DNA of 56,917 nucleotides from Gammaproteobacteria bacterium. GTDB lineage: Bacteria; Pseudomonadota; Gammaproteobacteria; Chromatiales; Chromatiaceae. Position numbers and translations under genes: made by a program. Of this stretch, positions 35,816 through 51,099 are shown piece by piece. The first letter of the stretch is position 1; each line of letters opens with the position of its first letter. Under the pieces are notes generated by a model. It made no database searches. It worked only from the letters and a program-made list of their open reading frames with translations, and had not been told where the DNA came from. The DNA lies in assembly GCA_009929855.1 (NCBI GenBank), contig RZZN01000024.1:1-56917 (forward strand). Reading direction: 5' to 3'.

Positions 35816-37855
35816 ATGGACAGGGTGCTGCGTCCTCTCAACCGCGCCCTCCTGGTCTTGCGCACGGAGGGTCTGCCGATCCTGCTGCGCAAGCTCAAGC
35901 GTCGTCTCCTTGCCACGCCGGCGCGGCGCGTCCGGCCGCCACGTCTCCTGCGTCTGGCCGCGCCATTGCATCCGCTCGATCTCACCCCCAGCGGTCCGCC
36001 GCGGTGCTCGGTGATCATCCCGACACGGGAGCCCTTCGCCCTCACGCATCACTGTCTGGCCGCGCTCGCGCAGTCTAGTGCCGCCACCCCCTTCGAGACC
36101 ATCCTGGTCGACGATGGCATGGACGAGGGCGCCGCGCGGCGCCTCGCCACCTACCCAGGTCTGCGCCTGCTGCGCCAACCGCGCCCCATGGGCGTTGCCG
36201 CGGCCTGTCTGCGCGCGGCCGCGATCGCCCGCGGAGACTATCTGGTGCTCCTGAGTCCGGCGACCCAGGTCCAGTCCGGCTGGCTCGATGCCTTGATCGA
36301 GACCTTCGCGGATGCGCCCGCGGCGGGTCTGGTCGGGAGCCGCCTGCTCGATGCACGGGGACGCCAGCTCGCGGCGGGGGCCATCCGCGATCCGCGCGGA
36401 TCTCTGCGCGGTCAAGGCGCGCTGGACGATCCCGGCAGGCCGCAATACAGCTACCGCCGTCCGGTCGAGGCCTGTCTGGGCGTGGCACTGGTGATCGAGA
36501 CCGCGCTCTTCAGACAGATCGGCGGCTGCGCACCCAATCTCCAATCAGCCGATGACTGTGCCGCCGACCTTGCGAGCCGGGTGCACGCGGCAGGCCGCTT
36601 GGTGTACTATCAGCCCTTGTCGAGCGTGGTCTGGCTGGGCGGGATCGAGACCGCCCGGACGCCTCCATTGTGGCGCGCGCGCGGTCGGCACAGCGCGCCG
36701 ACACCGGTTCCACCCTCCAGTGATCAGGGACGGCTCGACACAGACGCCACCCCGCGCCGTGCACTGGTCATCGACAACTATATGGTCATGCCGGATCGTG
36801 AGTCTGGCTCGGTGCGGATGCACAATCTGTTGCGCATCCTGCAAATGCTCGGCTTTCGAGTGACCTTCGCCGCCGCCAATCTCGAGGCCCCCCAACCCTA
36901 TGTCGCTCAGCTCCAGCGAATCGGTATCGAGGTGCTCTACCGGCCCTATGTCCGCCGTATCCGCGACCATCTCGCGACTCGGGGACGCGACTATGATCTG
37001 GTGATCCTGAGCCGCGCCGATGCCGCCGCGCGGACCATCGAGGCGGCCCGTACCTTCTGCCCCCAAGCAAGGATCGTCTTCGACACCGTGGACCTGCACT
37101 TTCTGCGCGAGATGCGACTGGCCGAGCTGCATGCGAGTGCCGCCCTGCTGCGGGTCGCCATGCGCCGGCGCGCTCAAGAGTTGGCGCTGATGCGCCGCGC
37201 CGATCTCACGTTCGTGGTGAGCGAGCCGGAGCGCGCGCTGCTGGCCAGAGAGGCGCCCGACGTCCGGGTCCATGTCGTTTCCAACATCCACGCGATTAAT
37301 GACTCGGTCACGCCATTCGACCAGCGCCATGGTCTAGTCTTCATCGGCGCCTTCGCTCACCCACCCAATACGGATGCCGTGTGCTTTCTCTGTGACCAGA
37401 TCATGCCCTTGCTGCGCCGGCTGGTCCCCAGCGTGCATCTGAGCATCATCGGCGCCGAGCCGCCGCGCGCGATCCGCGCGCGGGCCGCGGCGGACATCGA
37501 GATCTTGGGCCATGTCCCGGACGTGAGCCGCTATTTCGCGAGCTGTCGGGTCGCGGTCGCGCCGCTGCGCTATGGCGCGGGCGTCAAGGGCAAGATCAAT
37601 CAGAGCCTCGCTCATGGTCTGCCGGTGGTGGCGACCGGCATCGCCGTCGAGGGCATGCACCTCGTGGATGGCCAATCGGTCCTGGTCGCCGATGAGCCAT
37701 CGGCCTTTGCCGCGGCGGTGGCGCGTCTCCATCAGGATGAGGCACTCTGGCAACGACTATCGACCGCTGGTCTGCGGGTGGCGGAAGCGCATTTCGGCTT
37801 TGCGGCGGGCGAGCGGGCACTGCGCGCGGCACTCGATCTGGAGGCACCGGCGTGA
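35816..37855 (+). CDS. GT2-GT4 fusion glycosyltransferase
   Basis: I chose ATG 35816 (679 residues); a GTG at 35768 overlaps the DUF302 stop. Residues 1-55 are basic, then a GT2 domain (about 60-290: CSVIIPTREPFALTHHCLAAL, ETILVDDGMDEG, YLVLLSPATQVQ) and a GT4 domain (about 315-679: ALVIDNYMVMPDRESGSVRM, IVFDTVDLHFLREMR, FIGAFAHPPNTDAV, VAPLRYGAGVKGKINQSLAHG). The GT2 part lacks a clear DxD, having LSPAT at that place, and may be altered in function. Overlaps the following GT2 gene by four bases. Confidence 0.84.
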   Translation: MDRVLRPLNRALLVLRTEGLPILLRKLKRRLLATPARRVRPPRLLRLAAPLHPLDLTPSGPPRCSVIIPTREPFALTHHCLAALAQSSAATPFETILVDDGMDEGAARRLATYPGLRLLRQPRPMGVAAACLRAAAIARGDYLVLLSPATQVQSGWLDALIETFADAPAAGLVGSRLLDARGRQLAAGAIRDPRGSLRGQGALDDPGRPQYSYRRPVEACLGVALVIETALFRQIGGCAPNLQSADDCAADLASRVHAAGRLVYYQPLSSVVWLGGIETARTPPLWRARGRHSAPTPVPPSSDQGRLDTDATPRRALVIDNYMVMPDRESGSVRMHNLLRILQMLGFRVTFAAANLEAPQPYVAQLQRIGIEVLYRPYVRRIRDHLATRGRDYDLVILSRADAAARTIEAARTFCPQARIVFDTVDLHFLREMRLAELHASAALLRVAMRRRAQELALMRRADLTFVVSEPERALLAREAPDVRVHVVSNIHAINDSVTPFDQRHGLVFIGAFAHPPNTDAVCFLCDQIMPLLRRLVPSVHLSIIGAEPPRAIRARAAADIEILGHVPDVSRYFASCRVAVAPLRYGAGVKGKINQSLAHGLPVVATGIAVEGMHLVDGQSVLVADEPSAFAAAVARLHQDEALWQRLSTAGLRVAEAHFGFAAGERALRAALDLEAPA

Positions 37856-38793
37856 GCAAGGAGCACATCCAGAGCGCGGCGCGGGGGGGCGTGGCCAGCG
37901 CGCCAGAGCCAGCCGTCAGCGTCATCATCGTCAACTATAACGCTGGTGACCTGCTCACCGACGCCGTCGGCTCGACCCTCGACTCGGATGTCGCCGTCGA
38001 GGTGATCGTCAGCGACAACGGCTCGAGCGACACCAGCTTGGAGCGGCTGCGCATGCGTCATGGCGCTGACCCGCGTCTCACCATCCTCGAGAATGGCGTC
38101 AACCTGGGGTTCGCCAAGGCCAACAATCGCGCCTTGCCGCTGACCCACGCCGCACGCCTGCTCTTCCTCAACCCGGACTGTATCCTCAGCCCGGATACAT
38201 TGAGCCGATTGCTCGCCTTCATGGACGCCCGACCGGATGTCGGCATGGCCGGTTGTGTCGTCCGCAACCCGGATGGCACCGAGCAGGTCGCGAGTCGCCG
38301 CTCGATCCCAGATCCCTGGATCGCGCTCAAGCGCATCCTACGGATCGACCGGCTGCCCCCGGGACGCGCCGGGCGACGACTGGACCATCATGACGACCCA
38401 CTGCCGAGCGCGCCAGTGGCGGTCGAGGCGATCTCTGGTTCATTCATGCTGGTGGATCGGCGCGCGCTCGAGATGGTCGGTCCGCTCGACGAGGGCTATT
38501 TCCTGCATTGCGAGGACTTCGACTGGTTCGTGCGCTTCCGCGCGGCCGGCTGGACGATCGCACTCGTCCCCGACGTGAGCGTGATCCATTACAAGGGGGC
38601 CTGTAGCTGGCGTCACCCCATCGAGGTGGAGCGTCACAAGCATCGCGGCATGGAGCGTTTCTATCGCAAATTCCAGGCGCAACACTACCCGGTGATCTTC
38701 AACGCGCTCGTGATCCTGGGTATTCGGATACATTTCTTGGTGCGCTGGTTGCTCAATCGGCTCGGCCGACTGGCTCAGCGTCCTGGACACTGA
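37852..38793 (+). CDS. GT2 glycosyltransferase (rhamnosyltransferase-like)
   Basis: The GTG start at 37852 overlaps the stop of the previous gene (GTGA). The 313-residue protein is a typical bacterial GT2: VSVIIVNYNAGDLLTDAV, VEVIVSDNGSSDTSLERL, NLGFAKANNRALPL, LFLNPDCILSP, EAISGSFMLVDRRALEMVG and FLHCEDFDWFVRFRAAGW. This pattern is usual for rhamnosyl- or related transferases in polysaccharide synthesis. A C-terminal hydrophobic stretch (YPVIFNALVILGIRIHFLV) may tie it to the membrane. An epimerase gene starts two bases later. Confidence 0.88.
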   Translation: MSKEHIQSAARGGVASAPEPAVSVIIVNYNAGDLLTDAVGSTLDSDVAVEVIVSDNGSSDTSLERLRMRHGADPRLTILENGVNLGFAKANNRALPLTHAARLLFLNPDCILSPDTLSRLLAFMDARPDVGMAGCVVRNPDGTEQVASRRSIPDPWIALKRILRIDRLPPGRAGRRLDHHDDPLPSAPVAVEAISGSFMLVDRRALEMVGPLDEGYFLHCEDFDWFVRFRAAGWTIALVPDVSVIHYKGACSWRHPIEVERHKHRGMERFYRKFQAQHYPVIFNALVILGIRIHFLVRWLLNRLGRLAQRPGH

Positions 38794-38794
38794 G

Positions 38795-39814
38795 ATGGCG
38801 CTCGACGCGACCTGTCGACTCGGCCAAGTCCTGGTCACGGGCGCGACTGGCAAGGTCGGACGACGACTGGTCGCCGCGCTGCTCGAGGGCGGTCATCCAG
38901 TCACCCTGCTCACTCGCGCGCCCGAGGTGGCGCGCACCCTCTGGCCGGCCCATGCGCCCGCGATCCGCGCCGCTGACCTGACGCGTCCAGAGCGCCTGAG
39001 CGGAGCCTGCGAGGGGATCGACACAGTCTTTCATCTCGCCAGCCATGCGCCGGGCGCGGACGAACCAGACCTCTACGCGGCGCCCGGTCACTGGTCAGTG
39101 ACCGCCGAGGGGACCGCCAACCTGATGGTGGAGGCTGCCCTGTCCGGGGTCAGCCGGGTCATCTATCTAAGCAGCATCAAGGCCATGGGTGAGCAGGTCG
39201 GGACACTGGGTCGACCCGCCGACGAATCGCTCACGCCGCGGCCCGAGACACTCTACGGCCGCGCCAAGCTGGCCGCTGAAGCGCGTGTCTTGGCGTTTGG
39301 GCGCAGCGGCACTTGCCATGCCGCGGTCCTGCGTCTACCCATGGTCTATGGTCTCACGCGTGGCGGCAATCTCGCGCGTCTGGTCGCGGCGGTCGCGGCG
39401 GGGCGCTTTCCGCCCTGGCCGCGGATCGAGAATCGCCGCTCCGCGGTCCATGTCGAGGACGCCATCGCCGCGGCCATGCTGGTGGCCTGTCATCCCGAGT
39501 GCAGCGGCGAGGTCTATCTGGTCACCGACGGTCGCCACTATTCGACACGCTGGATCTATGAGCAGACCCGGCTTGCGCTCGGCCGCCCCATCCCCAGCTG
39601 GACGGTCCCGCTCGCGCTCCTCAGGCTCGCGGCCGAGCTCGGCACCGGTGCCGAGCGTCTCACCGGCCGCCGCATGCCGCTCACCCGCGAAGGGCTCGGC
39701 AAATTGAACGGTGATGCCTGGTTCAGCTCGGCGAAGCTGGAACAGCAACTCGGTTTCCGCGCTCGCCATCGGATGGAGTCCGAGATCCGGCGGCTGGTGC
39801 AAACGCCCGGCTGA
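38795..39814 (+). CDS. NAD-dependent epimerase/dehydratase (extended SDR)
   Basis: The 339-residue protein has the Rossmann motif VLVTGATGKVGRRLVAALL, FHLASHAPG, VIYLSSIKAMGEQ and the catalytic YGRAK. These identify an extended short-chain dehydrogenase acting on a nucleotide-sugar or lipid-linked sugar. The motif order resembles UDP-glucose 4-epimerase-like proteins. It ends the plus-strand glycosyltransferase operon and probably supplies or modifies a sugar donor for it. The exact substrate is unknown. Confidence 0.88.
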   Translation: MALDATCRLGQVLVTGATGKVGRRLVAALLEGGHPVTLLTRAPEVARTLWPAHAPAIRAADLTRPERLSGACEGIDTVFHLASHAPGADEPDLYAAPGHWSVTAEGTANLMVEAALSGVSRVIYLSSIKAMGEQVGTLGRPADESLTPRPETLYGRAKLAAEARVLAFGRSGTCHAAVLRLPMVYGLTRGGNLARLVAAVAAGRFPPWPRIENRRSAVHVEDAIAAAMLVACHPECSGEVYLVTDGRHYSTRWIYEQTRLALGRPIPSWTVPLALLRLAAELGTGAERLTGRRMPLTREGLGKLNGDAWFSSAKLEQQLGFRARHRMESEIRRLVQTPG

Positions 39815-40061: not shown

Positions 40062-40991
40062 ATGAAGAACCTACCACCGATCCATAGCCGACAAAGCGTG
40101 AACGACGCATTCGTCGCCATCCTGCGGCACAACTTTGCCGATGTCGGGACTTGGCAAGATGTAGCCCGAACCTGGGACGATATCGAGGGCGTTCACCAGG
40201 TGCGTGTGGCCTTTCGCCGCATGCGCTCGGCACTGAGCGTCTTCCGTGAGGCGATACCGCGCGAGTTGACGACCGAGATGGCCGACGAGATGCGTTGGAT
40301 CGCTGGTGAGCTCGGGCCGGCCAGGGATCTGGATGTCTTCATCGCTGAAGGGCTCGGCGCGGTGGCCTCGATGCTGCCCCTGGAGGGCGAGACCACGCTG
40401 CGCGGGCTGGCCGAGACACGGCGCGCCCAGGTCTACGCGCAACAGGTTCGTGTCATGCTCGACAGCGAGCGCTACCAGAAATTCTGCGGGTCGTTCCCGA
40501 GGTGGCTCGATGAGCGTCCGTGGGAACAGTCGCTCATGTCCAAGAAGCGCGCCAAGCGACTCTACTCGAACATCATCCCCTTCGCTCGCAAGCAGCTCGA
40601 CAAGCAGAACGGGCGCGTACTCGCCGCCGGCGCCCATATCAACCGCGAGGATGTCGTGGCGATGCACCAGCTGCGCATCGAATGCAAGAAGCTCCGCTAC
40701 GCGGCTGAGTTCTTTCGGCCACTGTTCGAGGGCATGGGCGATTTCATCACCCATCTCAAGGGCATCCAAGATCTGCTCGGGACCATGAACGACGTCTCCG
40801 TCACCCAACGTCTACTCGATGATCTGCTCGCCGATTCGAGCGACCATCAGGTTCTGATCTATGCCGGCGGACTCATCGGCTGGCGCACCTGCGAGTATTG
40901 CCATCTGTTGAATCGCTTCGATGAGTATTGGGATGAGCTCGCCGGAGCCAGGCATGAATGGTGGAAAAAGAACGCGGTCATCAAGGTCTAG
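40062..40991 (+). CDS. CHAD domain protein
   Basis: The 309-residue protein is a stand-alone CHAD domain: VHQVRVAFRRMRSALSVF, ELGPARDLDVF, a central helix bundle and a second half with MHQLRIECKKLRYAAEFF and LLGTMNDVSVT. CHAD domains are helical bundles with conserved His and basic residues; they bind polyphosphate and are found on polyphosphate granules. No CYTH domain is fused. It is monocistronic and heads the phosphate gene block. It may localise to or organise polyphosphate granules. Confidence 0.9.
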   Translation: MKNLPPIHSRQSVNDAFVAILRHNFADVGTWQDVARTWDDIEGVHQVRVAFRRMRSALSVFREAIPRELTTEMADEMRWIAGELGPARDLDVFIAEGLGAVASMLPLEGETTLRGLAETRRAQVYAQQVRVMLDSERYQKFCGSFPRWLDERPWEQSLMSKKRAKRLYSNIIPFARKQLDKQNGRVLAAGAHINREDVVAMHQLRIECKKLRYAAEFFRPLFEGMGDFITHLKGIQDLLGTMNDVSVTQRLLDDLLADSSDHQVLIYAGGLIGWRTCEYCHLLNRFDEYWDELAGARHEWWKKNAVIKV

Positions 40992-41006
40992 ACCCTCGCG
41001 CGGATG

Positions 41007-41032
41007 GTGCCAGGGGCGCCGCGCCCTGGCAC
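41007..41032. terminator. Bidirectional hairpin between CHAD gene and Na/Pi cotransporter
   Basis: A 9-bp stem (GTGCCAGGG / CCCTGGCAC) with an eight-base loop lies between the two convergent stop codons. It lacks a U-run on either side, so its efficiency is uncertain. Confidence 0.5.
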
Positions 41033-41033
41033 A

Positions 41034-42827
41034 TCAGCGGGGCTCGGCCTCCGACTCGATGACCACGGTCTTGGCCATGCGCTTGGCAAAGTAATAGATC
41101 CGCTTGAGCTTCTCGATGATGTCGACCTCGATGGTGTAGGCCGGGATGCGATTGGGCTCCTCGGCGACCAGCCGTTGTGCTTGATGGGCGGCCGCCGAGT
41201 CCGCGATGCGCGAGATCTCCTGTTTCATGGCAATGACGGCACGCGCCGGCATCTCATTGTTCTGCGCCACGGCCTGAACCGCCGACTGCACCGAGCGGTT
41301 GACCGCCAGGTGAAAGTTGGTCAGAACCTCACGGGTCGGTTGACTGATCGAGACGCCCTCGGCGATGCGCTCGTTGCCGAGGACGATCAGATTGGTCTCG
41401 ATGATGTCCCCGATATTCTCCAGATCGTTGGCAGCCTCCATGAGATGGATCAGATCCGCGGTCTGCTTCTCGGTCAGACTGAGCCGACTGATCTTGCTCA
41501 GGTAGGTGATGATCTGGGCATGCAACAGGTCGACATCGTCGTCCATGCGCTTGATCTCGGCGAGTGTCTCGCGATTGCCGCTGAGGATCGCGGGCATGAT
41601 CTTGCCCATCATGTCCTGCACCCGCTCACCCATGTGCAGGATCTCCAGACGCACCCGGTCGAGCGCGAGCGAAGGAGCGGCCAGCAGCTCGTCATCGAGA
41701 TACTTGGCTCGGATCACGAGACCCTCCTCGGCCAATGGCCGGTCGGGCACCAGCCATTCGGCGAGCCGCGCGAACTGGGTGGTGAAGCCGATGAAGAGGA
41801 TGGTATTGGCCACGTTGAAGAGCGTATGCGCATTGGCGATCTGGCGCGGTGTCTCGGCCGCCAGACGTGCCGTCCCCGCGAGATCGGGATACTGGGGCGA
41901 GAGCCAGGCCGTGAAGGCCGCCAGCTGCGGGATGAAGGCAAACCAGATGATGACCCCGAACACATTGAACAATACGTGCACGACCGCCGCACGCACCGCC
42001 TCCCGCGGCTTGCCGATCGCGGCGAGAAGCGCGGTCACACAGGTGCCGATATTGGCGCCGAAGGCCAAGGCGATCCCCACAGGCAGGGTGATGAATCCTT
42101 GGGTCGCCATGACGATCGCGATGCCCATGGTCGCGGCGGACGACTGGATGAGTCCGGTGAAGACCGCGGCGATCAGGATACTGAGCAGCGGATTCTCGAG
42201 CGTGCGCATGAACGCAAGGAAGGGCTCGTAGGTACGCAACGGCTGCATGGCGTCGCTCATGACGCTCATCCCGAAGAATACCAGGCCCAGCCCCATCAGC
42301 ATGGCGCCATAGTGACGGATGCGCTCGCGCTTGGAGACGAAGAGCATCAGGAAGCCGATACCGATCATCAGCAGCGCGGCCTTGGTCACCTGGAAGGCAA
42401 TCAGCTGGGCGGTCACCGTGGAGCCGATATTGGCACCCATGATGACCCCGACCGACTGCGACAGCGACATCAGCCCAGCCGTGATGAATCCAACCACCAG
42501 AACCGTGGTGACCGACGAGGAATTGATCACCCCGGTCACGAATGCGCCGGTCAGCGCGCCCGTGAACCGATTGGTGGTGAGCTTGGCCAGGATGTCTTTC
42601 ATCCGCTCGCCAGTGACCGCCTTGAGCGAAGCGGCCATCTGATCCATGCCGAACAGGAAGAGCGCGAGACCGCCGAAGAGGCCCATGGCCATGGTCCAGA
42701 AGTCGAGCGTCAGCTCGACACCCTCGCCGGCCCACGCCGCCGCCGAGCCCCAGAGTAGGCCGAACAGCAAGATCAGGCTCAGGACACGCCGCGGACCGAG
42801 ACCGAGCAACCATCGTGACTGCGACAT
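41034..42827 (-). CDS. Na/Pi cotransporter family protein with PhoU-like domain
   Basis: The 597-residue protein has a membrane part with two inverted repeats of the Na/Pi cotransporter signature (GLALFLFGMDQMAASLKAV; GALTGAFVTGVINSSSVTTVLVVGF; FTGLIQSSAATMGIAIVM; GANIGTCVTALLAAIGKPREA). A cytoplasmic C-terminal region of about 220 residues is helical and PhoU-like (LHAQIITYLSKISRLSLTEKQ; LMEAANDLENIGDII). This is the NptA/YjbB class, which moves phosphate with sodium. It lies 13 bases behind a universal stress protein gene, downstream of a Pho-box-like site. Confidence 0.93.
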   Translation of the reverse strand: MSQSRWLLGLGPRRVLSLILLFGLLWGSAAAWAGEGVELTLDFWTMAMGLFGGLALFLFGMDQMAASLKAVTGERMKDILAKLTTNRFTGALTGAFVTGVINSSSVTTVLVVGFITAGLMSLSQSVGVIMGANIGSTVTAQLIAFQVTKAALLMIGIGFLMLFVSKRERIRHYGAMLMGLGLVFFGMSVMSDAMQPLRTYEPFLAFMRTLENPLLSILIAAVFTGLIQSSAATMGIAIVMATQGFITLPVGIALAFGANIGTCVTALLAAIGKPREAVRAAVVHVLFNVFGVIIWFAFIPQLAAFTAWLSPQYPDLAGTARLAAETPRQIANAHTLFNVANTILFIGFTTQFARLAEWLVPDRPLAEEGLVIRAKYLDDELLAAPSLALDRVRLEILHMGERVQDMMGKIMPAILSGNRETLAEIKRMDDDVDLLHAQIITYLSKISRLSLTEKQTADLIHLMEAANDLENIGDIIETNLIVLGNERIAEGVSISQPTREVLTNFHLAVNRSVQSAVQAVAQNNEMPARAVIAMKQEISRIADSAAAHQAQRLVAEEPNRIPAYTIEVDIIEKLKRIYYFAKRMAKTVVIESEAEPR

Positions 42828-42840
42828 CCGAGCCCTCCTC

Positions 42841-43317
42841 TCAACCGCATTCAGCGGACTTGACGACCATGACAGGGATACGCGCGAGATGGACGACCCG
42901 CTCCGCCACCGAGCCGATCAGCAGGTGTTTCAACCCGGTCAGCCCTCGACTGCCGATCACGATCATCGATGCCTGAGTCTGCGTGGCCACCTCGATGATG
43001 CGCGAGCTCGGCAGACCCTTCACCAGCATGGAATGAAAACCGCTCAGATCCTTGATCTGCGGGTGCTGACGGATGATCGATTCCATCAAGTCGTCGAGCA
43101 TGGCCGAGGCCCCATCCTCGATGCGATGGAGCTGTTTCTTCTTCAGCGCGCGGCTGTAATAGCCAGGCATCGAGCCAGGGTCGTGGACGACGTGCAGGAC
43201 CAACAGCTCGCGTTGCAGACACATCGCTAGCTCGGCGGCCTGCAACAAGGCCGCTTCGGAAGTGGGCGAAAAATCCACCGGGACGAGCACAGGGCCAGTA
43301 AGCCGTTTGACTGACAA
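42841..43317 (-). CDS. Universal stress protein
   Basis: I chose the TTG at 43317 (158 residues), preceded by GGAG at eight-base spacing; the ORF runs to a GTG at 43428, but those 37 residues do not belong to the family and abut the Pho-box repeats. The UspA fold starts VLVPVDFSPTSEAALLQAAELA and ends with the ATP-binding IVIGSRGLTGLKHLLIGSVAERV (G-2x-G-9x-G-S pattern). It probably binds ATP. It is co-transcribed with the Na/Pi cotransporter gene 13 bases downstream, so it may link phosphate uptake to stress. Confidence 0.88.
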   Translation of the reverse strand: MSVKRLTGPVLVPVDFSPTSEAALLQAAELAMCLQRELLVLHVVHDPGSMPGYYSRALKKKQLHRIEDGASAMLDDLMESIIRQHPQIKDLSGFHSMLVKGLPSSRIIEVATQTQASMIVIGSRGLTGLKHLLIGSVAERVVHLARIPVMVVKSAECG

Positions 43318-43436
43318 GCTAAGGTCTCCGTGTGACCGCGAGGGCAGGGAAGGCTGAAGCCAAGACGAGGCAGACAGCGCGGGCGTGGCTCCGATGACCA
43401 CGAGCGCGACCGCGGAGACTGCCGACACGCGAAATT

Positions 43437-43475
43437 ATGACACTTTTTTGACTTTTGGGTGACAGATTCACGACA
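43437..43475 (-). promoter_or_regulatory. Pho-box-like array of four 11-bp repeats
   Basis: Read on the minus strand, four hexamers recur at exact 11-base steps: TGTCGT, TGTCAC, AGTCAA and TGTCAT, separated by five-base AT-leaning spacers. This is the geometry of PhoB binding sites (CTGTCAT-like half-sites 11 bp apart). A CATAAT at 43434-43439 next to the last repeat could be the -10 element. It lies upstream of the universal stress protein and Na/Pi cotransporter genes, which fits phosphate-starvation control. Confidence 0.7.
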
Positions 43476-43548
43476 CCCGGTGGGCTTCGAACAAACCCAT
43501 CAATAGCCGTCCGTTGAGCGGCTTCGCCTCATGGCACGGTGAATTCAC

Positions 43549-45036
43549 TCAGAGAGAAGGTCGCGCCACCCATTTGCCGGTCTGCACCAACCGATTGTAG
43601 ACCGGCAGCCAAGGCTCGACCGGATAGCGCAGCGGGACGAACTGCTCACCGATGCGTGTGATCACGCCGATCGTCTCGGGATCGGCGCCAAACAGCACGT
43701 GGTGATGCTCGATCCCTCCAGCGTCCCACCAGCAGGTCTCATCCGGCGTCAAGGGCGTATGCCCGACGATGAAGGGTGTATCAGGCCGCAGACCGAGACG
43801 TTTGCGCAGACCCGTGACATCACCGCGCGTATAGCCGCTCGCGCGATTGGGCGTGCGCATCCGTCGATTGATGAGCTGGTGGGCCAATCGTGGCTCATCG
43901 CGAATGTTGATCAGGTCGTCGCGCGTGCACTTGATGCTGGGCGCGCCCGCATGAGCGACCAAAAACCGCGATGACATGGCCACATACGGCAAGAGACGAT
44001 AGAGCTCATCCATGGCATTGCGATATTTGAGTCCACGCGCATCATGCAGTGCCTTCTCCCAGACCAGTCCCTGCGGGACCCCACCCTTGCTGAGATCCTC
44101 CGAGAAGCTGTCGTGGTTGCCGCGCAGATAGAAGACATGCGTTGGAAACCGGACCTTGAGACGCAGGATCAGATCCATCATCAGCATCGACATCTCCATG
44201 TCATCCTCTTGTCCGGGCTCGTCCGGATGCACCGCATCGCCGATGATGATCAGCATGGCCGTGCCATTCTCCAAGGATTCGAGAAAGGCATTCTGGGTCA
44301 GGACCACCAGCAGGTTGTCGATGCGCGCATGCAGATCGCCGACGAAGATGGGGGTGGGTCCATCCGGCAGCTCCAACAACCCACCCGGACGACCATCGTA
44401 TGTCGGGGTGCGATACGGCTCGCGCTCCATGATATGGATCACTTGCCTCAGGAGGTCCAAGGCCTCGCTCGCCGCGAGCGGCGCGATGGGTTCAGCGAGG
44501 ATCCGCGCCAGACGTTCCAGCTTGCCGCGGCGCCAGCGGATCTGGCGTTTCACCAGCGCCGAATCGGCCAGGGGTGCGACACAAGCCTCGTGTGCGCTCG
44601 TCTTTCTCTTGAGCATCAATCCCTTGGGACCCAGCTTGATACCGAGATGACGGCGTCCAACCAGTTCCGAATAGCCCAGCAGGAGCGCCTGCAATGGGTC
44701 ATCGTGTCCCAGGATCCAGGAGTCGCCGGGAGACAGACGCATGAAACCGCTGATCGAAGAGAAATAGACCGCGGGATCGAAGAGCAGATAGTTGCCACTT
44801 CGCCTGAATTGGCCGGCGTCGTCGAGACGCACCTCGGGGTCGAGATTGAGCCGATGCCCTAACTCGCCACCCAACGACAACTGTAATGGCAACACCGGCG
44901 CCGGCATCCTGATCTTGGTCTTTCCGAGACTCAGCGCCCCTTGCAGATCAACATCATCACAGGACTCGAGGTCCTGCAAGCGCTCCCGAAAAAAATCCAG
45001 GAAGCTCCGACGGGATTCAGGGGTCGCGTAAGGCAT
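43549..45036 (-). CDS. PPP-type metallophosphoesterase (Ser/Thr phosphatase-like)
   Basis: This 495-residue protein has an uncharacterised N-terminal half (about 1-225) and a C-terminal calcineurin-like phosphoesterase domain: FVGDLHARIDNL (GDxHx, about 233-238), IIGDAVHPDEPG (GDxxxx, about 266), YLRGNHDSF (GNHD, about 305-309), VAHAG (about 361-364) and VGHTP (about 425). These are metal and phosphate ligands. The motif order is that of PPP-type Ser/Thr phosphatases. Its neighbours are a 2-phosphoglycerate-kinase-like protein and a P-loop protein on the same strand, suggesting a phosphate-linked signalling set. The substrate is unknown. Confidence 0.86.
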   Translation of the reverse strand: MPYATPESRRSFLDFFRERLQDLESCDDVDLQGALSLGKTKIRMPAPVLPLQLSLGGELGHRLNLDPEVRLDDAGQFRRSGNYLLFDPAVYFSSISGFMRLSPGDSWILGHDDPLQALLLGYSELVGRRHLGIKLGPKGLMLKRKTSAHEACVAPLADSALVKRQIRWRRGKLERLARILAEPIAPLAASEALDLLRQVIHIMEREPYRTPTYDGRPGGLLELPDGPTPIFVGDLHARIDNLLVVLTQNAFLESLENGTAMLIIIGDAVHPDEPGQEDDMEMSMLMMDLILRLKVRFPTHVFYLRGNHDSFSEDLSKGGVPQGLVWEKALHDARGLKYRNAMDELYRLLPYVAMSSRFLVAHAGAPSIKCTRDDLINIRDEPRLAHQLINRRMRTPNRASGYTRGDVTGLRKRLGLRPDTPFIVGHTPLTPDETCWWDAGGIEHHHVLFGADPETIGVITRIGEQFVPLRYPVEPWLPVYNRLVQTGKWVARPSL

Positions 45037-45139
45037 CGCTGGTGATGAGTACTCTCACGAATCGGCCGGTCTGTCCGCGCGCCGGCATTCACGCTTTCTT
45101 AACAATATCGTCATCGATCCGCAAGCGGCAAGCATGCAT

Positions 45140-46333
45140 TCAGTCCACTGATGGACTTTTGCTCGAGCCGTCGAGCAGATCGATCATCGTCCTGAGCGCC
45201 AGCGTCGTCACCCTGTCCTTGTCGTCATTGATCAAGATGGGCGTGCCGACACGATCGGCCTCGGCCAGCAGATAGGCCTGGAGCTGCCAGATCCGCTTGA
45301 AGTTGGTCGGATCGGTCCGGGTCTTGCGGCCCGGAGCCTGACAACCCCGTCCTCTGAGACGGGTTCGCAGATCATCAGGCCGCAAGACACCCAGCATGAT
45401 GGGCACGACCAAGGCGTCACCGATCTCACCGAGACGCTCGGGCAAGGCCGGATGCACATGCACCCCCTCGACGATCAGCCAGACACGCTCGCGTATGGCA
45501 CGGGCGATGACGGCCTCGCAGGGCACGGCGAGCAGCTCCAATTGACGCTGATAGCCCTCGCGGACCCGCTCGGCGTCGTCGCTCGACTCATCCGGTTTCA
45601 GTGGCAGCGCGCTTGCGGCATCGAACGAGGAGCGATGCAGCACGGGCAACAGACGCTCGGGGATGAGCATTCGCATGACCTCGCGCAGCATGTCGGTCGA
45701 TTGGGTGCGGACGATGCCGAGTCGGTGCGCCAGCTCGGTGGCGAGCGTACTCTTGCCGCTTCCGGTCCCACCGCCGATGAGCAGGATCAGGGGCCGTCCG
45801 CTTTGGGTGAAATCCATCCAGACACGATAGCGCTTGGCGGCACGCGGACCATAGTGCTCGACCAGCAGGTCGCAGACACGCGCGCTCAGCTCAGCGGTCG
45901 AGATCTGTCGAGGTTGGCGCTCACCGAGCTGCTGCATGAGCAGAAGGCTCGCGCTACCGGCCTGCTCCTCGGTGAGGCCGCAAGCGGCGAGACTGCGCAT
46001 GAGCTCATTGCGCGCGAAAGGGCGCAGATCACCGTCGGTATTGCGCACCAGCAACCCATTGAGCGGTGCGCGCGCGGCCTCGTAGGATTCGGCGACGGCC
46101 AACGGATACTGCGCGCGCAGCTGCTGGATCACCAGAGCGCGCAGCTGATCGCGGGTGACGACATGGGTCTCGCCGAACTGCTGACGGATCTCCGAGGCCA
46201 GCTGGTAGGCATCCTCGAACGTCAGTCCCGCCTCGGTCAGTGACCGGGTGAGAATCCCTCTGAGGAAGGGAACCGGATTCTCACCGTCGGCATCCGTGAT
46301 ATGAACCTTTGCCATGTCGGCATCTGCCCCCAT
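45140..46333 (-). CDS. 2-phosphoglycerate kinase-like protein with ATP-cone regions
   Basis: The ATG at 46333 has AAGAG upstream and gives 397 residues; an ATG at 46315 is possible. The N-terminus resembles an ATP-cone (VHITDADGENPVPFLRGILT; ASEIRQQFGETHVVTRDQL), followed by a second related stretch (LRPFARNELMRSLAACGLTEEQ), then a P-loop kinase domain with LLIGGGTGSGKSTLATELA near residue 187, STDMLREVMRML and VEGVHVHP. This layout is that of archaeal 2-phosphoglycerate kinases (cyclic 2,3-diphosphoglycerate pathway). In a bacterium the true substrate may differ. The next genes on the strand are the phosphoesterase and, upstream, a P-loop protein. Confidence 0.78.
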   Translation of the reverse strand: MGADADMAKVHITDADGENPVPFLRGILTRSLTEAGLTFEDAYQLASEIRQQFGETHVVTRDQLRALVIQQLRAQYPLAVAESYEAARAPLNGLLVRNTDGDLRPFARNELMRSLAACGLTEEQAGSASLLLMQQLGERQPRQISTAELSARVCDLLVEHYGPRAAKRYRVWMDFTQSGRPLILLIGGGTGSGKSTLATELAHRLGIVRTQSTDMLREVMRMLIPERLLPVLHRSSFDAASALPLKPDESSDDAERVREGYQRQLELLAVPCEAVIARAIRERVWLIVEGVHVHPALPERLGEIGDALVVPIMLGVLRPDDLRTRLRGRGCQAPGRKTRTDPTNFKRIWQLQAYLLAEADRVGTPILINDDKDRVTTLALRTMIDLLDGSSKSPSVD

Positions 46334-46495
46334 TGTTGATGCTCTTGGCCGAGTCGTCGTCCGTCGGATGGCGTCCCTGCCCGCTCGATGAGGATCGCGC
46401 GAGCCAGCATCCACCACCTCGCTCCAGGGTATCCGATCATGACACGCCCGGAGACGTGAGCGCAGTGGCGAGCCAACCCGCGATGAGGCCGTGCC

Positions 46496-47122
46496 TCAGG
46501 GTTCGGCAAAGCGGCAGAAACGCCAGCCGACCTCACGATTGACATAGACCCGCATCCCATGATCGTGGAAGTAGCGAGCCGTCCAGGCGAAGGCATCGAC
46601 CTGGCGCACGATCTCGTCGAGATTCAGCCGCTCGTCGGGCGGATGGGTCGCATTGCGGGCACGCTCGCTGCGCCAGGCAAGGATGCGCTCCGGATCGGGT
46701 AGCAAGAAGACGAACGCGAAACGCGCACGCCAATCCACCGACCAGAAATGCGCCTTGCGCGGGGGGAATTGGATGCGATCGAAGTCGATCTGTAGATGCT
46801 CGCTGTCATCGAGATAGGCCGGCTCGAACAGGGCCAAGGACTCCGACCGCCCCCGAAAAGGGATCCCAAGGTGGATCTCGCGCGGACGCAGGGTGAGCGA
46901 TTGGGCCTTCCACCAGCCCTTCATCGCGAGATCGACATAGCCTTCCTCGGGCCAGCCCTTCAATCGACGGATCAAGGTCGACTTTCCGGAGCCGGGCGGG
47001 CCAGTGACCAACAAGCCGCGCAACGGCAGATCGATGGGGAGATCGACACCTCGCACCGATCGACAATCGCTGATCGGCTCCAACTGTAGACAGGATTCAT
47101 TGAACGGCTGATGCATCGGCAT
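46496..47122 (-). CDS. P-loop ATPase/kinase-like protein of unknown function
   Basis: From the ATG at 47122 the protein has 208 residues (a GTG/ATG further upstream to 47230 is open). A Walker A motif GLLVTGPPGSGKSTLIRRL lies near residue 41, followed by YVDLAMKGWWKAQ, REIHLGIPFRG and FVFLLPDPERILAWRSERARNATHP, with a C-terminal basic/aromatic segment. The Walker A and lid-like Arg residues suggest a small kinase or NTPase. I do not recognise a named family. It sits between the PiT transporter and the 2-phosphoglycerate-kinase-like gene, all on the minus strand. Confidence 0.7.
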   Translation of the reverse strand: MPMHQPFNESCLQLEPISDCRSVRGVDLPIDLPLRGLLVTGPPGSGKSTLIRRLKGWPEEGYVDLAMKGWWKAQSLTLRPREIHLGIPFRGRSESLALFEPAYLDDSEHLQIDFDRIQFPPRKAHFWSVDWRARFAFVFLLPDPERILAWRSERARNATHPPDERLNLDEIVRQVDAFAWTARYFHDHGMRVYVNREVGWRFCRFAEP

Positions 47123-47214
47123 CCGATCATCAATGCGGAGACTGTCGAAACGCTCGTCCCTTGGATCTCGGATCGCAAGGTCACCGACGAGACCGCGCGC
47201 GGAAGGTCGCGAAT

Positions 47215-47250
47215 CAGGGACGCTCGGCATCGCGGATGCCCGCGTCCCTG
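47215..47250 (-). terminator. Long imperfect hairpin downstream of the PiT gene
   Basis: A 9-bp outer stem (CAGGGACGC / GCGTCCCTG) and a 6-bp inner stem (GGCATC / GATGCC) around a GCG loop, separated by a small internal bulge. It lies between the PiT stop and the next gene and lacks a U-run; transcript processing or partial termination is likely. Confidence 0.45.
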
Positions 47251-47308
47251 GTCGAGCAGGCCGAAACGGCGCGGTGACCCATGGTACGGATCACCGCGCA
47301 ATCATGGC

Positions 47309-48580
47309 CTAGATGCTGATGAAGATACCTCTGAACAAGAAGAAGAACAAGGCGGCCAGAATCATGCCGACCGGCAGGGTGATCAGCCAGGACAACATGA
47401 TTCCACCGATCACGCGCAGATCCAGCGCGCCAATACCGCGCGCGATACCCACGCCCATGACCGCGCCAACCGCGACCTGGGTGGTGGAGATCGGCAGGCC
47501 CAGCTTGGAGGCCACGACCACGGTGGTCGCCGCCGCCAGGGTCGCGCAATAGCCGCGGGTCGGGGTCAGCTCGGTGATCTTGGTGCCGATGGTCTGCATC
47601 ACCTTGTAGCCCATGGTGGCCAGACCGATCACGATACCCAGACCGCCGAGGCCCAGGATCCAGAAAGGCAGCGGCGCCTTGGCGGCGATCTCGCCACCCG
47701 TGTGGACGATACTGTAGACGGCGGCCAGCGGACCGATCGCGTTGGCAACGTCGTTGGCGCCGTGCCCGAAGGCCATGGCGGCGGCCGTGAAGATCATCAT
47801 GGGGATGAAGATCTTCTCGACACTGGCATAGCTGCTCCGTCGGTCGGTCTTGTCGCTCGTCTTGACACGCCGGATCATCAGCCAACCGATGAAACCGGTG
47901 ATCACACCGATGATGGTCGAGATGATGAAGACCTCCAAATCGGTGAAGTCGAGCTTCAGATGTGACAAGCCCTTGAAGAGCGTGACCAAGGAGACGATCC
48001 AGCCCACCAGGAAGACATAGAATGGCCCCCAGAACCGCGCCTCCTTGACCGGGTCGTCCTTGTTCAAGATGAGATACTGGATACTGAGCATCAACACCAA
48101 CGCGATGGAGCCACCCACCAGTGGCGAGACGAACCAGGACGCGACGATGGTGCCGATCATCTCCCATTTGACCGCATGGATCCCGACCCCGACCGCGGCG
48201 AAGCCGACGATGGCCCCGACGATGGTATGGGTGGTCGAGACCGGCCAGCCACGGCTGGAGGCGATCATGAGCCAGACCGCCGCCGCCAGCAGCGCCGCGA
48301 GCATGCCGTAGGCCAACAGCTCGGGGTGTCCGGCGAACTGATCGATGTCGACGATGCCCCCACGGATGGTATTGGTGACCTGACCGCCGGCAATGACGGC
48401 GCCGGCAAACTCGAAGATGGCCGCAATGATGATCGCCTGCTTGACGGTGACGGCACCCGAGCCCACCGAGGTGCCCATCGCATTGGCCACGTCATTGGCA
48501 CCGATACCCCAAGCCATATAGACGCCGAAGATCACCGCCATGATCAAGAAGACATTGCCATACTGAGCAATAATTTCCAC
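47309..48580 (-). CDS. PiT family inorganic phosphate transporter
   Basis: The 423-residue membrane protein has the two PiT signatures GANDVANAMGTSVGSGAV and GHGANDVANAIGPLAAV, plus the SRGWPVSTTHTIVGAIVG and LGLPISTTQVAVGAVMGVG repeats and about ten to twelve helices. It imports phosphate (probably as a metal-phosphate complex) coupled to protons or sodium. It lies 125 bases after a DUF47 gene; this DUF47-PiT pairing is widespread, the DUF47 protein being a presumed regulator. Confidence 0.95.
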   Translation of the reverse strand: MEIIAQYGNVFLIMAVIFGVYMAWGIGANDVANAMGTSVGSGAVTVKQAIIIAAIFEFAGAVIAGGQVTNTIRGGIVDIDQFAGHPELLAYGMLAALLAAAVWLMIASSRGWPVSTTHTIVGAIVGFAAVGVGIHAVKWEMIGTIVASWFVSPLVGGSIALVLMLSIQYLILNKDDPVKEARFWGPFYVFLVGWIVSLVTLFKGLSHLKLDFTDLEVFIISTIIGVITGFIGWLMIRRVKTSDKTDRRSSYASVEKIFIPMMIFTAAAMAFGHGANDVANAIGPLAAVYSIVHTGGEIAAKAPLPFWILGLGGLGIVIGLATMGYKVMQTIGTKITELTPTRGYCATLAAATTVVVASKLGLPISTTQVAVGAVMGVGIARGIGALDLRVIGGIMLSWLITLPVGMILAALFFFLFRGIFISI

Positions 48581-48705
48581 GGCTTTACCCTATTGATGTT
48601 CGATTCATGGAATTGACGATGGAATGAGGCCCCGCGTCCCAGCACTGAGCCAGCCGACCCCTCGGTCCCCTTTCCTTCCCCCATATCGATCCACGCCGGG
48701 ATCCT

Positions 48706-49386
48706 CTAGCGCGCCAACAAGAGCCTGAGTCGGTTCCCCGACTTTTCCGCGTAATCGGCCAAATCGCCGGTCCAGATGATGAGCTGATACCAAAACATGA
48801 CCGACACCGCGCTCATGGTGTCCTCATGCTTGAACAACTGACGCGACAAGGACATGCCAAGTCGATCGGTTTCACTCTCGAGGCGACTGAGCTCATCGAC
48901 CATGGTCTCGACCTCGATGGCTTCGCGACCCCGAAAGCCCGAGGCCAGAAGATCGTCGATCTCGCCGATGATCTCTGCCGCCTTGGTCACGGTATCCACA
49001 CAGCGGCGCACGAACTTGCTCAAATCATCGGCCATGCCTGGTGGAACCGTCATATCGCGCTCGACCAACAGACCGGCGATATCCTGCGCGGTATCGGCGA
49101 TCGAGTCCTGCATGTCGAGCAGCTCGAGCAGATCGCGCCGATCCACCGGCATGAAGAGACTGTTGGGCAGGTGCATGCGCAGCTCGTTCTTGATCTCGTC
49201 GGCTGCCTCCTCCTTGGCGAAGATGGCGTCCTTCGCCTTTTCCAGCGCGGCCTTGTCATCCGCGATCAGGGCATCGAACAACCCCGGGACCTCCTGGGCA
49301 CAGGCGTTGACGGTCTCCATGTGCTTTTGGAGCGGCTTGAAGGGCGAACGCGCGAACATCGACGTCAGCGTTGTACCGGTCTTCAT
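48706..49386 (-). CDS. DUF47/PhoU-like phosphate transport regulator
   Basis: The 226-residue helical protein matches the TIGR00153/DUF47 family: FARSPFKPLQKHMETVNACAQ, AKDAIFAKEEAADEIKNELRMHLPNSLFMPVDRRDLLELLDMQDSIADTAQDI and VDELSRLESETDRLGMSLSRQLFK form a PhoU-like helical bundle. It is the partner of the PiT gene that follows on the same strand. A Pho-box-like repeat lies about 160 bases upstream. Confidence 0.93.
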   Translation of the reverse strand: MKTGTTLTSMFARSPFKPLQKHMETVNACAQEVPGLFDALIADDKAALEKAKDAIFAKEEAADEIKNELRMHLPNSLFMPVDRRDLLELLDMQDSIADTAQDIAGLLVERDMTVPPGMADDLSKFVRRCVDTVTKAAEIIGEIDDLLASGFRGREAIEVETMVDELSRLESETDRLGMSLSRQLFKHEDTMSAVSVMFWYQLIIWTGDLADYAEKSGNRLRLLLAR

Positions 49387-49812
49387 CGATCATTCTCCAT
49401 GGTTGCCACATTGCTTGATGGCCGAGATCACGGTCGCAGCTGGGGGCGCTCGAAGACCCTCGATGCCCACGTATCGCGCTCAACGGCTCAGGAGATCAGA
49501 TCCTCCTCGAGCGGATCCAGCGACAGGATGGTCGGCCGACATACTTGTAACAGAAACGACGCAATATCGTCACATCAAGTTGAGACGCACATCCTTTCCG
49601 GCCCCTCCTCGCTCGCTCCCGACGACCGCAACCGCGCTCGCGCTCGCGACCGCGACATCCATCGGAATCGGACGCTCGGGGGTGACCGCGACGTATCGAC
49701 AGACTGCGAGCAGCGAGCGTCGTCTCTCAAGGCAGGATCCGCTCGTCTGCGACATGAAGCCAAGGGATCGCCGCCAACGCGCTCCAGATGCGCCATGGCG
49801 GTGAGGCCAGGT
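49387..49812. other. Control region upstream of DUF47-PiT
   Basis: This 426-base gap separates the histidine phosphatase gene (3' end) from the DUF47 gene (5' end), both minus strand. It contains no supported gene; ORFs through it are Ser/Arg-rich shadows. It holds the Pho-box-like repeat at 49547-49574. Confidence 0.5.
49547..49574 (-). promoter_or_regulatory. Pho-box-like triple repeat upstream of DUF47-PiT
   Basis: On the minus strand TGTGAC, TGCGTC and TGTTAC follow one another at exact 11-base steps with AT-rich spacers (GATAT, GTTTC). The geometry is that of PhoB half-sites. It lies about 160 bases from the DUF47 start. Weaker than the array at 43437-43475 because the middle repeat matches less well. 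Confidence 0.45.
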
Positions 49813-50568
49813 CTAGAGCACGGGACGATGCCGACCTGGGCGATCCCGACCCTGGGCGCCGCCTGCAACAGAAACGCTCGCTTCGTGGAGGAGACGTGGA
49901 TAGGGCATCGCGCCGGTCCCGGCAGTCCGGTGGCTCGGGTCGAAGGGGATGCGGATCGCGCCATCGAGGATGAATCCAGAGGGTTGGCCCAGCTCGTCAT
50001 AGCGCAGACAGCGTTGGCCAGCGATCAGAAAATCGCCGATATAGCGATGGGAGATCTTGCGTTTCAGATGAGGGGGGTAGGACAGATCCAAGAGCCGGGT
50101 GATCAAACCGCGGATGACACCCGCATGGGCGACGACGAGCAGCGTTTGGCCATCATGCTCGGCCTCGAGTGACAGGACGAAATCCGCGCTTCGCCTGCGC
50201 ATCTCGGCAAAACTCTCACCGCCCGGGAACACATAGTCAGGATCGGTCTTGTACTGTGGACAGCGTGCGATCGCCCACTGCTTGGAGGTCAGCGACAGCT
50301 CGCCATAGTGCACCTCGTTGAGCTCAGGCACACTGCGAACCGCCGCCACGTCGGTCTGGCTTGCGAACCAGTGCGCCGTGGCGCTTGCCCGCTCCAAACG
50401 ACTGGAGTAGATCTGATCGAAGTGAAGTCCGCACTCCTGGAAGATCCGCGCCACTTGGATGAGATCCTCTTGCCAATCCAGTGCTGGCGGCGAATCATGC
50501 CAACCGATGATGCGCTGGTCGACATTGTTGACGGTCTTGAAATGACGGACAAGAATCAGGCGCATCAT
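49813..50568 (-). CDS. Histidine phosphatase superfamily protein
   Basis: From the ATG at 50568 (GGAGG about 13 bases upstream) the protein has 251 residues. The catalytic motif reads LILVRHFKTVNN (RHF instead of the common RHG), with the second Arg in SSRLERASATA, the Glu in NEVHYGEL and the second His in LLVVAHAGVIRGL. It belongs to the phosphoglycerate-mutase-like/SixA-CobC branch and should hydrolyse a phosphoester. The last 50 residues (from about 200) are Arg/Gly/Pro-rich and unlike the family. It adjoins the phosphate gene set on the same strand. Confidence 0.87.
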   Translation of the reverse strand: MMRLILVRHFKTVNNVDQRIIGWHDSPPALDWQEDLIQVARIFQECGLHFDQIYSSRLERASATAHWFASQTDVAAVRSVPELNEVHYGELSLTSKQWAIARCPQYKTDPDYVFPGGESFAEMRRRSADFVLSLEAEHDGQTLLVVAHAGVIRGLITRLLDLSYPPHLKRKISHRYIGDFLIAGQRCLRYDELGQPSGFILDGAIRIPFDPSHRTAGTGAMPYPRLLHEASVSVAGGAQGRDRPGRHRPVL

Positions 50569-51099
50569 ATCTACATCAGGTCCTCCAAGCATCTCCTCTG
50601 GCCCCGGAGTCACATGGCTACGGGTTACTCGACTCAGTCATCACTGAGCATAGCGGGCTTGCTATGGCAAGTGCAAATTTTCACGCCTTACCCGCTCGTC
50701 ACAGGAACCCAGGCCCAAGGGAGTCGGGGCGTCTTCGCCCCGAGTAAGGACACTCGCCACGCCGATCCTGAAGCAGAGCCTTATCCTGAAGCCGGAACGT
50801 CTTGGGCGTGTCATCTGGTCCGAGTGCGCGCGAAGCGCCTGACTCGGGGCCTGGAGACCCCGACTCCTTTGGGGCCAGAGACCGCCCAGGGGAGTCGGGG
50901 CGTCTTCGCCCCGAGTAAGGACACTCGCCACGCCGATCCTGAAGCAGAGCCTTATCCTGAAGCCGCAACGTCTTGGGCGTGTCATCTGGTCCGAGTGCGC
51001 GCGAAGCGCCTGACTCGGGGCCTGGAGACCCCGATTCCTTTGGGGCCGGAGGCTGAGACTCCTTTGGCGGCGACCATTCGCGGCTGCATTGCTCGATCA
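50569..51099. other. Intergenic region with duplicated hairpin-rich repeat
   Basis: This 531-base stretch between the histidine phosphatase and the methyltransferase gene contains two long direct repeats (50720-50876 and 50891-51047) and no supported gene. ORFs on both strands read through only because the repeat period, 171 bases, is a multiple of three. Confidence 0.6.
50720..51047. repeat. Two near-identical 157-bp direct repeats, 171-bp period
   Basis: Copies at 50720-50876 and 50891-51047 differ at only two positions by eye (g/c and c/t). Each copy begins with a perfect 8-bp hairpin (TCGGGGCG / CGCCCCGA with TCTT loop) and ends with another (TCGGGG / CCCCGA, eight-base loop). A short fragment (ACTCCTTTGG) recurs at about 51058. 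This looks like a palindromic repetitive element (REP/MITE-like), recently duplicated. Confidence 0.8.

Follow-up and report, generated by a model that had tools for sequence, protein, structure and literature searches.

A conserved pair of P-loop kinase-like and phosphatase-like genes beside the Pit phosphate transporter

A stretch of 56,917 nucleotides from a gammaproteobacterium of the family Chromatiaceae (GenBank assembly GCA_009929855.1, contig RZZN01000024.1, positions 1 to 56,917; hereafter the window) carries a row of phosphate-related genes that encodes, downstream of the inorganic phosphate transporter Pit and its PhoU-like partner DUF47, a kinase-like P-loop protein and a putative phosphatase that we call MPE. 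We conclude that the P-loop protein and MPE form a real pair that is conserved beside Pit, and we found no description of such a kinase-like/phosphatase pair in the open-licence literature searched. The sequences argue for this through the pairing itself, the fusion of the two genes, their order with Pit, their coupled loss in one genus, and the predicted PPP-type and FHA-like folds. We lean, by a modest degree, towards the view that the two proteins act as an opposing kinase/phosphatase switch that would serve the Pit/DUF47 phosphate system, in polyphosphate-storing bacteria among others.

Pairing and gene order across genomes

Alignments of MPE and of the P-loop protein were each used to search 369 genomes of the class. 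At most four candidates per genome were scored for each alignment and protein (at most seven for CHAD), such that a partner could be overlooked. Matches to the P-loop alignment were counted only if they started no later than profile position 16 and had an E value below 1e-75, which left 10 matches in nine genomes. An unfiltered tally of 79 genomes was discarded because two rows of this alignment carry a GAF domain and most of the matches were to the GAF region or to bare Walker motifs. MPE and the P-loop gene occupy the identical nine of the 369 genomes, which represent six families, and none was found with one gene alone (Fisher p 3e-18, uncorrected for shared ancestry).

Gene order was read from the best 80 of 173 MPE relatives in a species-level genome collection, a selection that does not by itself establish that a taxon such as Propionivibrio lacks the gene. 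The hosts include Chromatiaceae, Sedimenticola, Thiodiazotropha, tubeworm symbionts, Accumulibacter, Dechloromonas, Sterolibacterium and Magnetococcales, and the named loci whose MPE is most similar to that of the window belong to Chromatiaceae, for example Thiohalocapsa. At 60 of the 80 loci, the P-loop gene and MPE share a strand and the P-loop gene directly precedes MPE, with 26-339 bases separating the matched stretches. The order Pit–P-loop–MPE is present at 53 loci, a recurrence that indicates a grouping beyond chance, and the longer order DUF47–Pit–P-loop–MPE is present at 46. At least one of Pit, DUF47, a Na/Pi cotransporter or CHAD was identified at 68 loci (67 in a first count, with DUF47 later identified in L146); Na/Pi of at least 50% identity is found at 23 of them and is accompanied by a universal stress protein (Usp) at 16. 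The P-loop gene precedes MPE at all 11 loci titled Accumulibacter, nine of which have a Pit of at least 55% identity there as well, and the single Dechloromonas locus likewise has both. The link to phosphate supply that was drawn in the initial annotation of this DNA is well supported.

In two organisms, the P-loop protein and MPE are encoded by one open frame, of 752 amino acids in Candidatus Accumulibacter regalis (L128) and of 690 amino acids in Dechloromonas sp. SSD3 (L136). Furthermore, the divergence of MPE is correlated with that of the P-loop protein at r 0.90, and that of each with Pit at 0.47, as computed on the 48 of 80 loci in which all three proteins are of usable length. As a separate observation, loci L149, L150 and L152, from Thiodiazotropha and a related symbiont, each hold two MPE genes close together.

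Domains of the two proteins and their fate in one genus

The Metallophos profile matches the window's MPE over residues 230-383 only, at 35.0 bits against a gathering score of 21.5, and it matches 13 of 18 aligned members at a permissive E value of 10. An AlphaFold model (pTM 0.89) gave PPZ1 as its top Foldseek match (E 1.4e-12, TM 0.67 on the target), followed by PP1 and PP5. MPE is like these PPP-family Ser/Thr phosphatases in fold and in the order of the motifs GD-H, GD, GNH, H and GH, but the identity is just 14-18% among the matches listed. Canonical PPP enzymes have GDxVDRG as the second motif and GNHE as the third, whereas MPE has GDAVHP, GDAVQP, GDAVHS and similar versions of the second, and GNHD as the third. 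The VDRG of the canonical second motif occurs in none of the 90 distinct MPE rows that were retained from 105 collected. We take D234, H236, D267, N307, H362 and H426 to be the metal-binding or catalytic residues, with roles inferred from the PPP motifs; all six are present in the window's MPE and in 81 of the 90 rows.

MPE also differs from PPP phosphatases by an additional FHA-like domain in front. This N-terminal half had been described as novel, and it indeed has no Pfam assignment, but it can be aligned to FHA domains. Against 24 FHA sequences from relatives, hhalign gave a probability of 90.4 and an E value of 1.4e-6, compared with 0.06 for the best of 40 column shuffles and 0.035 for the reversed control. 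The C-terminal half of MPE against FHA yielded 0.73, and the N-terminal part yielded 0.26, 0.069 and 0.48 against the PGK2, HISP and CHAD alignments. The P-loop alignment matched the N-terminal region at 2.9e-13 due to two fusion proteins within it, and at 0.24 once trimmed to its P-loop part. No direct match to Pfam FHA was found in the 18 MPE members, and PF16697 (YscD cytoplasmic), an FHA-like family, was matched by three of them, at best with 0.11. Judged from these alignments, the MPE N-terminus is a divergent FHA-like domain.

The P-loop protein has an invariant Walker A motif, GPPGxGK, in 11 of 11 aligned rows, as well as conserved arginines. Its predicted structure is confident (mean pLDDT 82), and it has no good match among known structures, the nearest being adenylate-kinase-like (best Foldseek E 2.1e-3, TM 0.3-0.4). 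In two family members, from L083 (E 2e-9) and L084 (E 1.5e-9), a GAF domain is present at the C-terminal end, which suits signalling. These two proteins (L083:518-1798 and L084:9096-10358) also have a hydrophobic tail that resembles a membrane helix, and no MPE match was present in the stretches of L083 and L084 examined. They are possible sensory paralogs.

The combination of these domain types in one chain calls to mind nucleic-acid end-healing enzymes. Bacterial Pnkp joins a P-loop kinase to a calcineurin-like phosphatase, and animal PNKP joins an FHA domain to a phosphatase and a kinase; the likeness is one of domain architecture. We consider it very improbable that the pair heals nucleic-acid ends, given that it shares a gene row with Pit and DUF47 at 46 of the 80 loci (where neighbours beyond the window's families were identified in part), that neither fused protein has a ligase domain according to Pfam, and that Pnkp is absent among the 50 Foldseek matches listed for each of the two models.

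The fate of the pair within the window's own genus offers another view of the connection between its members. Ten other searched genomes share this genus and nine of them carry MPE, but neither the P-loop gene nor a Pit of at least 59% identity was found in any of the ten. In all nine MPE sequences, H236, D267, N307 and H426 are jointly replaced, and in one of them D234 is replaced too. Five of these degenerate sequences recur unchanged in named Thiocapsa loci (L106, L109, L110, L112 and L129), and the degenerate gene still adjoins Na/Pi in seven of nine cases. With the partner P-loop gene and Pit missing while its catalytic residues have changed, MPE persists here as an apparent pseudophosphatase. 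The degenerate form is confined to one lineage, and thus reflects a single event or few.

The 2-phosphoglycerate-kinase-like gene and the rest of the row

The proteins of the window were assigned with Pfam and NCBIfam (Table 1). The nine genes proposed by the initial annotation are all open reading frames at their places, and its family calls agree with these assignments. The minus strand carries a run of seven genes, from DUF47 through Na/Pi, and Pit matches the PHO4 profile from end to end (398 bits, positions 1-350 of 350).

Table 1. Genes of the phosphate-related row in the window, with the evidence for each assignment
Feature	Positions	Strand	Evidence
CHAD-domain protein (polyphosphate-binding family), convergent neighbour	40062..40991	+	Pfam PF05235 E 1.6e-56
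Na/Pi cotransporter with C-terminal PhoU domains (two PhoU stretches)	41034..42827	-	PF02690 3.3e-59, PF01895 4.3e-15; TIGR00704 above cut-off
Universal stress protein (Usp)	42841..43428	-	Pfam PF00582 E 4e-28
MPE: FHA-like domain (~residues 40-155), then PPP-like phosphatase domain (~215-475)	43549..45036	-	Metallophos 2.5e-8
ATP-cone and 2-phosphoglycerate-kinase-like protein (2-PGK-like)	45140..46417	-	Pfam 2.7e-12; PRK12337 1.3e-69
P-loop kinase-like protein, partner of MPE	46496..47230	-	Weak Walker A matches only
Pit/PHO4 inorganic phosphate transporter	47309..48580	-	Pfam PF01384 E 3.6e-119
DUF47/PhoU_div (PhoU-like), partner of Pit	48706..49386	-	Pfam PF01865 E 2.5e-51; TIGR00153 above cut-off
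Histidine phosphatase, phosphoglycerate-mutase/CobC-like	49813..50613	-	Pfam PF00300 E 2.4e-29; best NCBIfam matches all below cut-off

Some of these genes may start later than the longest frames indicate. Homologs make 46315 the more likely start of the 2-PGK-like gene over 46417, and 50568 is a more likely start of the histidine phosphatase than 50613. The start of the P-loop gene is uncertain, with 47122 or a later position agreeing with homologs.

The initial annotation had proposed that the P-loop, 2-PGK-like and MPE genes could form one module and had suggested checking their co-occurrence. This holds for MPE and the P-loop gene, which share the same nine of 369 genomes, but is only partial for the 2-PGK-like gene. 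The latter was found in 15 of the 369 genomes at E below 1e-50, which comprise seven of the nine genomes with the pair and eight of the 360 others. This skew speaks for a three-gene unit, and so does proximity: the gene is close to the pair in the window and in L122, L140, L144, L240 and L242, and in L071 and L250 it is close to the P-loop gene only. However, the gene was not found in two genomes that have the pair (G132 and G273), it occurs at only three of the 80 MPE loci, and in L244, L245 and L248 it lies near Pit without the pair. Among the loci examined, only the window has it between the P-loop gene and MPE. A single module of three genes is therefore unlikely, and we reject this one-unit reading on the distribution and locus positions of the 2-PGK-like gene; what survives of the module is the P-loop/MPE pair. 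The 2-PGK-like gene is best described, from its distribution and neighbours, as a separate phosphate-linked enzyme that is inserted here and is non-obligate for the pair.

Its own phosphate context is evident from 36 stretches that carry the gene, for which the query proteins used to recognize neighbours were named by NCBIfam. At least one of Pit, DUF47, Na/Pi, CHAD, PPK1, PPK2, PPX, PhoU, PstS or PstC is present in 22 of the 36 stretches and in two of 20 controls. When the window and the three loci found via MPE (L122, L140 and L144) are excluded, the counts are 18 of 32 and two of 20 (p 0.001). The controls were 20-kb stretches that we picked from contigs of five genomes (G280, G118, G251, G168 and G017), and several of these contigs have a 2-PGK-like or MPE gene at another position. 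The 2-PGK-like stretches average 13.9 kb, such that the length bias runs against the enrichment, and two of them (L081 and L238) were counted through Pit-family or PPK2-like matches of ~30-35%. In L241, L243, L244, L247, L249 and L250, no more than about 13 kb separates the gene from pst genes, phoU, ppk1, ppk2 or ppx; such stretches might be called phosphate islands.

The phosphoglycerate mutase ApgM is present in 10 of the 36 stretches and a histidine phosphatase in eight, and neither is present in the 20 controls; the histidine phosphatase adjoins the 2-PGK-like gene in L080, L122 and L140. Proximity of ApgM fits phosphoglycerate as a substrate, and given the frequent ApgM or phosphoglycerate-mutase-like phosphatase neighbours, the 2-PGK-like protein probably acts on phosphoglycerate. 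Its ATP-cone and kinase region aligns with methanogen 2-phosphoglycerate kinase (PRK12337, PRK04220) over 38-414 at E 1.3e-69, but the protein falls far under the NCBIfam equivalog cut-offs (235 of 603 bits and 229.6 of 343 bits). The product of the methanogen pathway is thought to be a thermoprotectant, according to an excerpt of PMC2686161, a role that has no obvious fit to these bacteria. In rice, a variant of LPA1, which weakly resembles 2-phosphoglycerate kinase, accompanies low seed phytate, according to the part of PMC6417671 consulted.

Other features of the window lie outside this argument. No Rfam elements were found within it. At 50713-51051, a 168-base unit is repeated in tandem (98% identical, 171-base spacing, 36-base inverted arms), and related copies are scattered through the genome, several of them in tandem or near contig ends; there are 144 genome matches at E of 0.001 or lower, some of which are arms on the opposite strand. 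Frames inside this region, such as 50662-50985, are probably spurious. Glycosyltransferase-like and NAD-epimerase-like frames (37852-39814, families judged by eye) close a plus-strand run before the CHAD gene.

A candidate switch for phosphate uptake and storage

The arrangement of Pit and DUF47 in the window is that of known Pit systems with a DUF47 (PhoU_div) partner, to which the P-loop and MPE genes add two further downstream genes. In the switch that we propose, the kinase-like P-loop protein would phosphorylate a target and MPE, with its FHA-like and PPP-type domains, would strip the phosphate from the same target. The switch would serve the Pit and DUF47 encoded alongside it, and would let the cell adjust low-affinity uptake of phosphate, or the reverse flow, to its energy and phosphate status. 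The target could be Pit, DUF47 or a small signal molecule. We infer this choice of targets, as well as the common substrate, the activity of both enzymes and the identity of the P-loop protein as a kinase.

Several observations weigh against this proposal. The P-loop protein is called a kinase on the strength of its Walker A motif, its conserved arginines and a weak likeness to adenylate kinases. FHA domains contact phosphothreonine through an Arg and a Ser, and these contacts are poorly conserved in MPE (Arg in 37 of 90 rows, Ser in 12 of 90, with His and Gly in the window); we reject canonical FHA-site reading of phosphothreonine by MPE because the contact residues are mostly lost. Of the 60 loci with adjacent genes, just two show the fusion, one of them (L128) in a metagenome assembly. 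At 20 of the 80 loci there is no P-loop gene directly upstream of MPE; at four of these (L087, L119, L121 and L162) the available upstream sequence is shorter than 1.9 kb, and at the rest it is longer. Among 56 relatives, MPE is present in 20, nine of them the degenerate same-genus forms and 11 intact. Nine of the intact cases come with the P-loop gene, which speaks for the pair, but in the other two (G028 and G015) the P-loop gene was not found. The covered sequence of five Magnetococcales loci contains no phosphate genes, and the neighbours scanned in L153, L159, L163 and L164 include LpxK, a Kdo transferase, RF-1 and CNNM. Finally, relatives of ppk1, ppk2 and ppx (40% identity) were found at none of the 80 loci, and no measured connection between the pair and polyphosphate was found in the literature searched.

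The absence of these relatives from the MPE loci also bears on whether the pair turns over polyphosphate directly, with MPE as a polyphosphatase and the P-loop protein as a polyphosphate-using kinase. CHAD has been characterised as a polyphosphate-binding module, according to an excerpt of PMC6537752, and it is present in all nine genomes with MPE and in 117 of the 360 other genomes of the class (p 5e-5, uncorrected for shared ancestry). It lies within 3 kb of MPE in L051, L069 and L256, and Accumulibacter is among the hosts. However, CHAD is thus also present in genomes without MPE and occurs at only four of the 80 MPE loci, and we regard direct polyphosphate turnover as improbable.

A stronger competitor, if still clearly less favoured than the proposed switch, is that the two proteins synthesize and degrade a small phosphorylated metabolite, used as a signal or for storage, rather than act on a phosphoprotein, with Pit merely benefiting. 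The enzyme 6-phosphofructo-2-kinase/fructose-2,6-bisphosphatase makes and breaks such a metabolite. The fold of the P-loop protein is nearest, weakly, to small-molecule kinases, a kinase-phosphatase fusion exists, and the second kinase of this row is 2-PGK-like, a family with ApgM near it in 10 of 36 stretches. Against this possibility, no substrate pocket was matched, and the PPP domain is closest in fold to protein Ser/Thr phosphatases. A role in defence or in phages was rejected, with PADLOC giving no match for MPE and just weak P-loop-type matches for the other two central proteins; a PHROGs search gave a NinI-like phosphatase match at 9e-6.

Enzymes that unite kinase and phosphatase in one protein are familiar from 6-phosphofructo-2-kinase/fructose-2,6-bisphosphatase, from the isocitrate dehydrogenase kinase/phosphatase AceK, and from bacterial Pnkp. 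The predicted opposing activities described here likewise share one gene row or chain. However, the pairing of folds differs from that of the first two, no ligase is named in the P-loop/MPE fusions as compared with Pnkp, and the phosphate-transport context sets the pair apart from all three.

A link of the pair to polyphosphate storage is plausible. In Accumulibacter, phosphate efflux via pit is reported to drive fatty-acid uptake, according to an excerpt of PMC12604563, and the determinant of the polyphosphate-accumulating phenotype is reported as unknown in the part of PMC12455942 consulted. One could speculate that a switch with its own Pit, sometimes fused, gates Pit flux and partly sets polyphosphate accumulators (Accumulibacter, Dechloromonas/Azonexus, purple sulfur bacteria and invertebrate sulfur symbionts) apart from other holders of Pit, and that a parallel phosphoglycerate-based signal or store, involving the 2-PGK-like protein, ApgM and the histidine phosphatase, joins the same control. 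We regard this extension as rather doubtful.

These findings delineate, by sequence, a class of Pit gene row to which a kinase-like gene and a phosphatase gene are attached. We consider the P-loop/MPE pair a good candidate for control of phosphate uptake and storage, including in the bacteria that remove phosphorus from wastewater. If the pair does gate Pit, then uptake and release in phosphorus removal would become a defined enzyme question, for which culturable purple sulfur bacteria could serve as models.

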